A stretch of 64,000 nucleotides of DNA from Spinacia oleracea (Eukaryota; Streptophyta; Magnoliopsida; Caryophyllales; Amaranthaceae): NCBI RefSeq assembly GCF_020520425.1, contig NC_079487.1, positions 106,116,141-106,180,140 on the forward strand, written 5' to 3'. Positions within the stretch are counted from its first letter, which is position 1; each line of letters opens with the position of its first letter. Positions 56,885 to 61,755 of this stretch are shown here, piece by piece. Made by a program: the position numbers and the translations under genes. Under the pieces are notes generated by a model, which worked only from the letters and a program-made list of their open reading frames with translations, ran no database searches and was not told where the DNA came from.

Positions 56885-56949
56885 ATAATAATAATAATAA
56901 TAATAATAATAATAATAATAATAATAATAATAATAATAATAATAGTAAT
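56885..56949. repeat. (TAA)n microsatellite, tract 1
   Basis: About 20 TAA units, ending AATAGTAAT directly before the LINE start codon. Confidence 0.97.
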
Positions 56950-59900
56950 ATGGCGGCTTCCGTGGAGAAGTTTCATTGCCCTTTTGTGGGTCTTAGCGGG
57001 TGCCAGGATGGAGGTGGGCGTGGTTTGGTGAGGAGTTCTCTGATCACTCACTTACGGGATCGTCATTATTGCTCTGGTGTGCGGGATGTAACCCGTCATT
57101 CCCTTACTACCAATTTGCAGGTTTTTTCTACGGCTGAGGTGACCTTTCGTCGTATGGGTATTTGGCTATGTGGAGATTGTTTCAAGACACATACTCAACG
57201 TACTAGGTGTCGACATGGCAGTGGTTCTAGTACTGTTTTTGTGGACCCACCTGATTCTGGGGATGGTATTTTTCGTTTTATTCTCTATGGTATTCAAAAA
57301 CCGCAAGCTCCTGCTTCCGAGCTGTCTTTTTCTGATGCGCCTCGAGAACATCATTTTTCTTTTGATGTTGCTCTTCTAGACACTTTATTGTCTAAGCGAT
57401 TGCGCTCTGTGAAATCCATCCCTCCCAGATGTCGTTTGGGTTTTTCGCGAGTTCTAAAAGGGGCGCTTGATAAGGTGATTTGCAGACCTGATGACATCGC
57501 TTGTTGGGTTCAGTTGCTTGTGTTACCTCTTTGTGTCCTCACGACTTTTTCACCGCGAAGTAATCGTGAGTGTTCCTCTGGTGTTCGGCGGCGACGACAG
57601 GAAGAGTGTATCACCTCTGCTATTCGTTCTTGGGGTGAGCCTGGTGGTTCCGAGCAACTAGTCATAGACACATTGGCTAGTGTGTCTCCATTGGATGTTG
57701 ACGAAGACCATGATTTGGCGGAGCGTAATATTAAGCAATGCAAGAGAAAGATTTCTGATGGTCACTACACTGCTGCAGTTAGGGTTCTTTCTTCCTCGGG
57801 TCTTGGCCCTTACAATGATGCTACCCTTGCAGATTTGCGAGCAAAGCACCCTTCCGTTCCGGTCCCTACCTTACCGGATATCCCTGTTGATCATCACCTT
57901 ACTGCTTCCTCCGCTGTTGTTTTGGAGCAGATTAAGGGCTTTCCGCGTGGTACTTCGTGCGGTAGGGATGGCTTGCGTGCACAATACCTTTTGGATTGCT
58001 TGGGTGGTGCTGCTGTAGCTGTTTCTGATGAGTTGGTGGATGCTATCACTCAGGTAGTTAATCTCTTTCTTGCTGGAAAGTGCCCTGCTGTGCTTGGAGG
58101 ATACATTGCTAGTGCTCCTCTTACACCACTTGTTAAGCCTGGTGGGGGTATTCGGCCTATTGCTGTGGGCACTATTTGGAGGCGCCTTGTTTCTAAGGTC
58201 GGGGCTGCTTTGGTTGGTCCGCGTTTAGGAGCCTACTTTGGAGGAATTCAGTTTGGAGTTGGGGTTCCAGCAGGTGGTGAGGCCATTCTCCATGCTGTCA
58301 ATCGGTTGGTTGAGGCTCGTGGGGCCGATGTTGGCCTCTCTATGTTATTGGTGGATTTTCAGCATGCGTTCAATTTAGTTGATCGATCGGCTTTGTTGCG
58401 TGAGGTTCGGCTTCATTGTCCTGCTCTTTCGCGTTGGGTTGAATTCTGCTACTCTTCTCCAGCGCGGCTGTATTATGGGGAGCATACCTTGTGGTCTTGT
58501 CAGGGTGTGCAGCAAGGGGATCCTCTCGGCCCTTTGCTTTTTTCTTTGGTTCTACATCCATTGGTGTGTCGCATCAGAGACTCATTTGATCTATCTCTTC
58601 AGGCTTGGTACTTGGACGAAGGCACTATCGTTGGTGACACTTTGGTGGTTGGGTAGGTCTTGGAGTTGATTTTGGAGGAGGGTCCTCATTTAGGTCTCCA
58701 TGTTAATGTTGAGAAGACGGAGGTTTTCTGGCCTTCAGAGGACCCACGCAGTCGTCTGGAGGGTGTCTTTCCTACGGATATTGCTCGTCCTGCGTTCGGT
58801 GTTAAGTTGCTTGGTGGCCCAGTCAGTACGGATTCTTCTTTTTGCAAGGAGTTGGTTTCGCAGCGTGTGTCGAAGACTGTTGTGTTGATGGATGCTGTAG
58901 CCAAGCTTAATGATCCCCAGTGTGAGTTGTTGCTTCTTCGTGCGTGTACTGGAGTTTCTAAACTCTACTTTGCTATGCGCACTTGTCCGCCTCATCTTTT
59001 CGAAGCGGCCCAATTATCTTTTGATGTGGCTCTGCGGGCTTCTTTAGAGCGCATCGTGACTGCTTCGGGGCCTGGGTTCGGTGACTGGCAATGGCGCCTT
59101 GCCACCTTGCCTTATTCTTATGGAGGATTGGGTGTTTATTCAGCTGGTGATGTTCGGCATTATGCTTTTCTTGCATCCCGTTTGCAGTCTTCTGCTTTGC
59201 AGGATTCGCTTCTTCGGCTTTCAGGTGTTGATGGACCGGGACCGGCCTTTGATGATGCTCTTGGTCTTTTCAATAGGACCGTGGAGTCCGACCTTATGCG
59301 TAGCCCTAGTGAGATCGCTGCCCCCACACTCATGAAGAAATTGGCAGACATATATTTCACGAAGGTTACTGCTGATGCGGAATCCGCCTACTCCTTATCT
59401 TCACGTCTTGTTGCCCTATGGAAATCGCAGCAGGGGGATCACTCCTCGGCTTGGTTGCGGGCAGTCCCCATCTCGGGTTTAGGCCAGACTATGAACGGTA
59501 AGACTTATCGTTCGGTTCTTTGCTATCGGTTGGGTATTCCGTTGTTCTCTGATTCGACGCCGTGTTCTGCTTGCTCTCGGGTTTTCGACGGGGACATTTA
59601 TGGGGACCATGCCGTGTCTTGTGCTGGGATTGTGGGTATCAAACATCGACATAATGTTGTTCGTGATACCCTTTTGGATATTTGCTATCGGTCGGGGATT
59701 TCTGCTCGCAAGGAGGTTGATGTTGGGCTGACTAGTGAGAGTGATGGAGCTCTTCGTCCTGCAGATATTTTGCTTTACTCATTGGATGGCGGTCTAGATG
59801 TGTGTGTTGACTTGACTGGGTCTTCTCCTATGATGCAATCGGGGTTGTCAGGCTTCGTTCCGGGTCGGGTTGTGGCGGTTGCAGCGCAACGGAAGCAGGA

Positions 59901-60135
59901 TAAGTATGCGGCACGTTGTAGAGCTTTGGGTTACGGTTTCTTTCCTTTTTCCTTCTCTTCTTTTGGGGAATTAGAGAAAGGGGCTGTTTCTTTGCTGAAG
60001 CGGGTCCAGACGTACTCCAGGGCTCGGGACATTGGGGCGCGGGCAGCTGCCCACATTTTCAGCAGGATCGGGTTCGCCATAGCTAGAGGAGTGGGGGCCC
60101 AGATTGTATCTCGGCTCCCCTCCAACTTCTTGTAG
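56950..60135 (+). pseudogene. RLE-type LINE protein: zinc finger, reverse transcriptase, CCHC, PD-(D/E)XK-like endonuclease
   Basis: ATG 56950 abuts the TAA tract. N-terminal C2H2-like finger (HCPFVGLSGC...HLRDRHYC, residues 9-41). A second Cys/His cluster (LCGDCFKTH...CRH) is near 74-90. RT domain from about 330: SCGRDGLRAQYLL, PLVKPGGGIRPIA, LLVDFQHAFNLVDR, CQGVQQGDPLGPLL. The catalytic motif reads YLDEG (near 553), with Glu in place of the second Asp. TAG at 58654-58656 (codon 569) interrupts the frame just after. The remainder is open: CSACSRVFDGDIYGDHAVSC knuckle (near 871), RHNVVRD, LRPADILLY and VCVDLTG (near 936-950), KQDKYAARC (near 981), ending RLPSNFL. This order is that of R2/R4-type LINEs, whose C-terminal nuclease nicks a specific target. 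Both RT changes predict an inactive copy. Confidence 0.83.
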
Positions 60136-60186
60136 TTCACTTGTTCTTTGTAGCTTGTTAAGCTTGTAACGTTTTGGTGTTTTCCT
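56950..60186 (+). mobile_element. non-LTR retrotransposon with restriction-endonuclease-like domain, inserted in (TAA)n
   Basis: Starts at the edge of one TAA tract and ends at another (60187-60269). One protein of 1061 codons (56950-60135) plus a 51-bp 3' UTR. No poly(A); the 3' end is the TAA repeat itself. No separate target duplication can be distinguished because target and tail are both TAA. Three truncated relatives follow in the same array. Confidence 0.85.
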
Positions 60187-60269
60187 ATAATAATAATAAT
60201 AATAATAATAATAATAATAATAATAATAATAATAATAATAATAATAATAATAATAATAATAATAATAAA
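60187..60269. repeat. (TAA)n microsatellite, tract 2
   Basis: About 27 units; 3' tail of the full-length LINE and 5' flank of the next truncated copy. Confidence 0.97.
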
Positions 60270-60408: not shown

Positions 60409-60515
60409 ATAATAATAATAATAATAATAATAATAATAATAATAATAATAATAATAATATAATAATAATAATAATAATAATAATAATAATAATAATAATA
60501 ATAATAATAATAATA
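60409..60515. repeat. (TAA)n microsatellite, tract 3
   Basis: About 35 units with one ATAT interruption near 60459. Confidence 0.97.
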
Positions 60516-60929
60516 TCTGTTCGCAGGCTGAGGTTGTTGTGGAGAAGGAGGTGCCTTTGGGATTTCTGTCCGAGGAAGGGAGAGATCTCCGTCCTGCATA
60601 CCTTCTTGTCTACTCTTGGGACAAAGGAAAAAAAATGTATGCTTAGATGTCACGGGTATTTCTCCCTTCACCGGGCCAGGAGTTGATGCTTTTGCTCCTA
60701 GGGTTGCTGTCGCTAATGCTGTTGCCAGGAAGAAGAAGTATGAAGCGAAGTGCATAGGCGAGTGATGCCCTCGAGTTCATGTCTAAGGTCTCACGGGTTG
60801 CTCAGAGTAACACGGCTGCTGCTAACATTCGTTCTTTTCTTTTTCATCGTTTGTGTTTTGCTTTGAATAAGGGTGTCGGAGCCCAATTAGTGGCTAGGCT
60901 CCCATCCAACTTTGTGTAATCGCTTATTT
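60516..60929 (+). mobile_element. 5'-truncated RLE-type LINE, copy C (diverged, frameshifted)
   Basis: Readable in pieces: AEVVVEKEVPLG, RDLRPAYLLVYSWDKG, then in other frames a segment equivalent to the DVTG...AFAPRVAVANAVARKKKKYEAKC part, and NTAAANIRSFLFHRLCFALN...ARLPSNFV ending at 60918-60920. It corresponds to the endonuclease end of copy A, with frame breaks, from another subfamily. A TAA tract follows. Confidence 0.8.
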
Positions 60930-61056
60930 ATAATAATAATAATAATAATAATAATAATAATAATAATAATAATAATAATAATAATAATAATAATAATAAT
61001 AATAATAATAATAATAAAATAATAATAATAATAATAATAATAATAATAATAATAAC
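60930..61056. repeat. (TAA)n microsatellite, tract 4
   Basis: About 42 units with an AAAAT interruption near 61016. Confidence 0.97.
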
Positions 61057-61692
61057 TTTGTCCAACTCTGATTCGACGCCGTGCTCTGCTTGCTCTCGGG
61101 TTTTCGACGGGGACATTTATGGGGATCATGCCGTGTCTTGTGCTGGGATTGTGGGTATCAAACATCGTCATAATGTTGTTCGTGATACCCTTTTGGATAT
61201 TTGCTATCGGTCGGGGATTTCTGCTCGCAAGGAGGTTGATGTTGGGCTGACTAGTGAGAGCGATGGAGCTCTTCGTCCTGCAGATATATTGCTTTACTCA
61301 TGGGATGGCGGTCTAGATGTGTGTGTTGACTTGACTGGGTCTTCCCCTATGACGCAATCTGGGTTGTCAGGCTTCATTCCGGGCCGGGTTGTGGCGGTTG
61401 CAGCACAGCGGAAGCAGGATAAGTATGCGGCACGTTGTAGGGCTTTGGGTTACGGTTTCTTTCCTTTTTCCTTCTCTTCTTTTGGGGAATTAGAGAAATG
61501 GGCTGTTTCTTTGCTGAAGCAGGTTCAGACGTACTCCAGGGCTCAGGACATTGGGGCACGGGCAGCTGCCCACATTTTCAGCAGGATCGGGTTCGCCATA
61601 GCTAGAGGAGTGGGGGCCCAGATTGTATCTCGGCTCCCCTCCAACTTCTTGTAGTTCACTTGATCTTTATAGCTTGTTAAGCTTGTAACGTT
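61057..61692 (+). mobile_element. 5'-truncated RLE-type LINE, copy D (close relative of copy A)
   Basis: From SDSTPCSACSRVFDGD (61067) to the stop codon at 61652-61654 it matches the end of copy A with about 22 differences in 590 bases by eye; the frame is fully open across the CCHC knuckle, RPADILLYSWDGG and the C-terminus. The start lies next to TTTGTCCAAC at the TAA edge. Its 3' UTR is shorter than copy A's. Confidence 0.9.
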
Positions 61693-61755
61693 ATAATAAT
61701 AATAATAATAATAATAATAATAATAATAATAATAATAATAATAATAATAATAATC
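61693..61755. repeat. (TAA)n microsatellite, tract 5
   Basis: About 20 units, then the right arm of the Harbinger-like host element. Confidence 0.97.

Follow-up and report, generated by a model that had tools for sequence, protein, structure and literature searches.

A high-copy family of spinach long interspersed nuclear elements (LINEs) that carry a restriction-like endonuclease (RLE) inserts, in our reading and with a probability of about 0.85, in fixed orientation into (TAA)n microsatellites. The evidence starts from a 64,000-nt stretch of Spinacia oleracea DNA (contig NC_079487.1, positions 106,116,141 to 106,180,140 of the forward strand), here called the window. Positions 56886-61753 of the window hold four LINE copies, all on the + strand, arranged head to tail and spaced by five TAA arrays:

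56886-56942, + strand: (TAA)19, 5' of copy 1
56948-60187, + strand: LINE copy 1, with complete reading frame and 3' untranslated region (UTR), 5'-truncated, without 5' UTR
60188-60268, + strand: (TAA)27, separating copies 1 and 2
60269-60409, + strand: copy 2, 5'-truncated, of a second subfamily
60410-60513, + strand: TAA array with one interruption, separating copies 2 and 3
60514-60930, + strand: copy 3, 5'-truncated and frame-broken, of a distant third subfamily
60931-61055, + strand: TAA array with one interruption, separating copies 3 and 4
61066-61693, + strand: copy 4, 5'-truncated, of the subfamily of copy 1
61694-61753, + strand: (TAA)20, 3' of copy 4

Copies 1 and 4 agree at 606 of 627 nt (97%), copy 2 matches them at about 80-82% when array bases are counted, and copy 3 shares about 27% amino acid identity with copy 1 over its broken frame; at least three subfamilies are thus represented. 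The arrays around these copies are not due to chance: at least three TAA units were found in 60 of 20,000 random 60-nt windows drawn from positions 1-54000. A preliminary description, made from the sequence alone, had recorded one long and three 5'-truncated copies of at least three subfamilies on the same strand, each bounded by TAA on both sides. This observation is confirmed, with amendments. The long copy is not full-length, as it begins 2 nt upstream of the ATG while full-length genomic copies have a 5' UTR, and copy 4 has about 10 extra nucleotides at its 5' junction. These nucleotides (61056-61065) resemble neither the TAA array nor copy 4 and are possibly non-templated or template-switch filler.

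The reading frame of copy 1 encodes the following parts:

56950-60135, + strand: reading frame including the terminal stop, broken by TAG at 58654-58656
56977-57066, + strand: putative zinc finger, an N-terminal C..C..H..H pattern without Pfam match
58135-58638, + strand: reverse transcriptase (RT) core (RVT_1), Pfam E 6.2e-8
59563-59622, + strand: CX2CX11HX3C knuckle upstream of the nuclease
59641-59982, + strand: RLE core with KHRHN, KE, RPAD-x14-D and KQDKY, its limits drawn from motifs and secondary structure

Read through the internal stop, the translation has 1061 residues. The in-frame TAG, together with a changed position within the RT catalytic motif (58609-58623), where the relatives have another residue, means that copy 1 cannot code for an intact enzyme; long open frames are present at other genomic copies, many of at least 1050 amino acids among the 150 scored. 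The order RT, knuckle and RHN/RPAD/KxDKY nuclease, as originally proposed, is borne out by the motifs and the RVT_1 match, and so is the lack of an apurinic endonuclease, with Pfam returning RVT_1 only for both halves of the frame. The claim of an N-terminal zinc finger stands as a pattern of cysteines and histidines, but not as a recognised domain. R2 and LINE-1 head the profile matches of the RT (R2Tg, E 2.4e-9; LINE-1 chains, E 2.9e-7 to 1e-6), and by sequence R2Tg is matched at E 6.2e-6. For the C-terminal domain, the predicted model shows the PD-(D/E)XK arrangement that the preliminary description had expected, and a Foldseek search with the nuclease model gave seven matches at E<=1e-3, all of them R2 endonucleases; R2 supplied the top seven matches for both models. 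A profile comparison of the RLE part with R2 yielded a collinear stretch that was not significant. The motifs RH, KE, RPAD-x14-D and KX2KY fit the nuclease described for RLE-type LINEs, in which a CX2-3CX7-8HX4C knuckle precedes the RLE and GXW follows strand 4 (PMC5678591). The knuckle spacing of the spinach family differs from this pattern, and at the GXW site the window protein has GELE, the other plant rows read likewise lack GXW, and the relative P0124 has LGGW. A non-long terminal repeat (non-LTR) RT, a downstream nuclease predicted to be of PD-(D/E)XK type and a single frame without apurinic-type endonuclease characterise the family as an RLE-type LINE.

A search of the genome with the RLE domain turned up 1989 first-look candidates; 150 of these were scored, each with E<1e-120. 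Two of the 150 belong to the window itself; the other 148 show 96-98% identity and many have frames above 1050 amino acids, which argues that the family multiplied recently. DNA was read at 30 loci with 1.5-kb flanks, in 8-kb regions at 20 of those, and in 16 short 5' windows, and the joint flank table is restricted to copies with a retained 3' end (n=38, two from the window). The element runs into TAA repeats (...A followed by TAA) at 30 of 30 loci inspected by eye, and at least three TAA units lie in the next 60 nt in 38 of 38 copies (36/36 outside the window). The preferred junction phase, TAA, was found in 38 of 40 matched tails, whose loci overlap with the 30 read by eye. Genome-wide, a 24-mer from the 3' tail has 160 exact matches, 30 followed by TATAATAATAATAA and 81 by CATAATAATAATAA (111 in total), and none followed by the backward-control junction strings.

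At the 5' side, nine of the 38 copies begin at the edge of the DNA read, leaving 29 that can be scored. Nineteen of these have at least three TAA units within 60 nt of the 5' end (17/27 without the two window copies), compared with 239 of 11,915 control windows in the same loci (2%; Fisher p 2e-25), and TTA occurs within this distance in 0 of 29. The arrays adjoining copies are often long, with up to 20 units within 60 nt. Full-length 5' UTRs measure about 570-870 nt or more, are GT-rich and diverge fast between subfamilies (L059-L074, L041, L047, L048), with conserved last nucleotides before the ATG and a AAGTGCTTTGATATGG end in most copies read. Because of this fast change, 16 more copies were picked by rule: a frame of at least 1050 amino acids, in score-list order, with the 5' end not yet read, taking 900-500 nt upstream of the ATG. 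Thirteen of them reach the 5' end, while L065, L066 and L068 begin inside the 5' UTR, and a TAA array precedes the element in 11 of these 13 full-length copies. Ten of the thirteen show an exact GGCGATTAGGGC terminus which, in copies where the array is visible as well, is 10-35 nt away from it. That most scorable copies elsewhere in the genome also sit between TAA repeats, as had been predicted, is thus seen in the flanks on both sides. At L059 and L072 the 5' array is preceded by the 3' end of another copy, so head-to-tail clusters recur; arrangements like that of the window are present at L042, L044, L045, L059 and L072. Among TAA arrays read beginning at the start of C1, the contig of the window, L002 and L003 are the two ends of another copy with TAA at both, 4.0 kb apart, the middle kilobase being unread.

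Several observations weigh against this interpretation. Ten of the 29 scorable 5' ends lack three TAA units within 60 nt. In our reading of these, L039 and L054, with a common flank, and L049 and L057 (...TTACA) look like cases of a putative later insertion of another element; the 5' UTRs of L051, L055 and L058 (first copy) fall outside the comparison library; the second copy of L042 joins the tail of another family copy; the 5' side of L053 keeps just ..CCAATAAT; and L040 has neither TAA nor any explanation. The 5' end of L062 follows (TAAATAA)n, L070 shows too little flank, and the TAA-rich 5' flank of L061 contains a short TTA run. At the 3' side, 49 of the 160 tail matches carry neither exact junction string, at least three TTA units lie near 4 of 38 ends, and two L051 copies face each other across mixed TAA/TTA. 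Finally, the TAA array L001 and a TTA array at window positions 23566-23644 have no family sequence nearby.

The DNA surrounding the arrays bears on which came first, the array or the insertion. The LINE cluster of the window, with its TAA arrays, is nested wholly inside a further element:

55831-61852, no strand assigned: DNA element with terminal inverted repeats GGCCCCATTTAGTTCACCTT / GGCCTTGTTTAGTTCATCTT, with TAA at 55828-55830 and 61853-61855

We take this element to be Harbinger-like on account of its ends and target duplications; it also has internal repeats of about 31 nt of the GGACATGATCTG type. Related sequence (67-88% identity) flanks LINE copies at L048, L052 and L053 (3' side), and the flank ACAATGATATAAACATATACCAATAAT is common to L052 and L053, although one of these copies is truncated and the other full-length. 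Related host DNA surrounds the array at all three loci and in the window. At least 30 nt upstream of the array were read in ten copies; two (L059, L072) show the tail of another copy there and eight (L041, L047, L048, L060, L061, L063, L071 and L074) no family match. In some cases the array is a composite that includes TGA or CAA units. Together, the related host DNA, the non-family DNA upstream and the composite arrays favour insertion into existing arrays, which would make the arrays older than the insertions.

Sense-strand TAA is observed at both ends of most scorable copies, and 5' truncation is frequent and variable. We infer that the nuclease nicks TAA repeats, that the RNA primes on them and that arrays grow as both target and product. 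The RLE would nick the (TTA)n strand of the microsatellite, whereupon the RNA, ending in or read into UAA repeats, would pair with the freed 3' end and the RT would copy it from there (target-primed reverse transcription). Joining of the second end would take place in the same array, in many cases before copying has extended to the full 5' end. Such a reaction would leave TAA on both sides of each insertion, so the locus would remain a target and clusters could build up. Specificity for TAA could be set by the nuclease, the RNA tail, or both. Overall, the interpretation offered in the preliminary description is supported, and none of the three outcomes that it had listed as refuting was observed.

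A nuclease of broad specificity, or another lesion, might also open the DNA, with the TAA bias arising only from UAA-ended RNA pairing with TTA-rich ends in a similarly primed reaction. The single preferred 3' phase (30/30 by eye; 38/40 matched tails at overlapping loci) is what a TAA-ended RNA would give, and the I element ends in TAA repeats (PMC3747384; this and all sources cited below are used in excerpt). However, an RNA tail alone would not place TAA upstream of the 5' end, where it is seen in 19/29 copies and in 11/13 full-length ones, and several copies sit in host elements that carry the array. We regard this explanation as unlikely, although a form of it in which the tail pairs with long pre-existing arrays is possible. 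It is considerably less probable that the 5' arrays were made by the insertion process itself or by later slippage rather than by targeting. The length of many arrays beside copies would agree with such an origin, as would the existence of clusters whose 5' array is supplied by the tail of the copy before, but this leaves the eight copies with non-family DNA upstream of the array, the independent insertions that share the array of a host element, and the composite arrays with TGA or CAA units. For the window cluster alone, a single segmental duplication instead of repeated insertion could be invoked from the 97% identity of copies 1 and 4; yet these two differ in 5' truncation point and 3' UTR length, two other subfamilies lie between them, and like arrangements exist at five other loci, which makes this origin very improbable. 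Insertion into TAA arrays is the reading that we retain.

The rest of the window contains repeats of other kinds. An L1-type LINE lies on the - strand at 15047-20120; its 1061-amino acid frame includes an RT that matches human LINE-1 at E about 1e-42, and a frame upstream of it weakly matches a zinc knuckle. A CTGAA array (25805-25936) runs directly into a perfect (TAATTAA)62 array (25937-26372). Positions 36821-38070 are made up of about eight copies of a 159-bp tandem repeat, in which a higher-order period of 481 bp is also seen, and a copia-type LTR retrotransposon frame with gag, integrase and RVT_2 lies on the + strand at 45700-49173.

The copy 1 protein is 95% identical to one spinach protein and 46-74% identical to long proteins that include those of other plants; among the matches listed (the best 120 of 469 and the best 120 of 568), the hosts include Spinacia, Silene, Papaver, Ranunculus, Trifolium, Orobanche and several Asteraceae, which places relatives in eudicots other than spinach. 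We built an unrooted RT tree from about 190 residues of 31 sequences, with 10 plant proteins, 16 YLDDG-type relatives, three R2 and two L1 rows (the last two groups being pieces) and with R4, NeSL, HERO, CRE, Utopia and RTE absent. The plant proteins form one group (support 99) and, with the YLDDG-type relatives, which include proteins of the sponge Ephydatia as well as P0204, a protein without YLDD, are separated from R2 and L1 (support 100). R2 and L1 attach by a very long branch within the relatives at low support (31, 67), and sister relations are therefore not fixed by the tree. Human L1 and the window L1 pair (95) and then join R2 (100), apart from the family. Membership of the L1 clade is rejected on this placement, and that of the R2 clade by the position of the copies in TAA arrays, not 28S rDNA. 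The preliminary description had named an RT inside L1 or RTE as evidence against itself; for L1 the result is negative, the RT grouping with the YLDDG type, while the tree held no RTE. The YLDDG-type relatives are probably HERO-like. YLDDG and RPAD-type motifs occur in HERO animal proteins.

Among known systems, R2 (R2Tg, R2Bm, R2Pm) shares the order of RT, knuckle and RLE with the spinach family, but it targets 28S rDNA instead of TAA arrays, and its RT has YADD in place of YLDD, the two RTs standing on either side of a long branch supported at 100. Dong (Bombyx mori, R4 clade), DongAg and DongBg resemble the spinach family in being RLE-type and in lying in TAA or other microsatellites; they are, however, animal elements. 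The 5' junction of Dong consists of TAA repeats and its 5' end has a self-cleaving ribozyme (PMC3774820), while DongAg and DongBg insert in microsatellites (PMC3636483). A comparison of the window cluster and the 13 full-length 5' ends with Rfam gave no match to a hepatitis delta virus-like ribozyme. The TAA target shared with R4/Dong may be convergent; the comparison contained no R4 sequence. RLE clades, including microsatellite-specific HERO and Togen families, have been described, with Utopia reported in Amoebozoa, SAR and Opisthokonta (PMC4640811). The HERO clade, RLE-type and in some families microsatellite-specific (PMC4640811), resembles the spinach family, with reported hosts that are animals: sea urchin, lancelet and fish (PMC9004415) and bivalves (PMC10294476). 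HEROFr, HEROTn and HERODr have been called not site-specific (PMC3636483).

For plants, MGEScan-nonLTR labelled 642 of 1020 full-length spinach LINEs as CRE and 22 as R2 (PMC6337768), an automated label that, in the excerpt, comes without account of nuclease, target or TAA; the LINEs so labelled probably include the TAA-associated family. One NeSL family in Asteraceae is mentioned (PMC4546089). The literature searched, as excerpted, describes RLE-type LINEs from animals, protists and oomycetes, and no description of a plant RLE LINE or of TAA targeting in plants was found in it. Elements of this kind are known; the lineage in plants, and how strongly it is associated with TAA, appear to be new. 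We tentatively suggest, at slightly less than even odds, that these elements form an undescribed, eudicot-wide clade of RLE LINEs, independent of Dong, that uses TAA microsatellites as a renewable landing site and both seeds and maintains some of the long TAA arrays in spinach and perhaps other plants.

RLE-type LINEs, R2 among them, serve as the model for target-primed reverse transcription, and work is under way to turn them into tools for gene insertion (PMC12222951). With its recent spread, its long open copies and a simple target made of repeats, the spinach family provides a tractable plant system for RLE targeting, and it points to one source of the TAA microsatellites found in plants. 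In the light of this case, LINEs that automated plant annotation has placed in CRE or R2 also seem to deserve re-examination.

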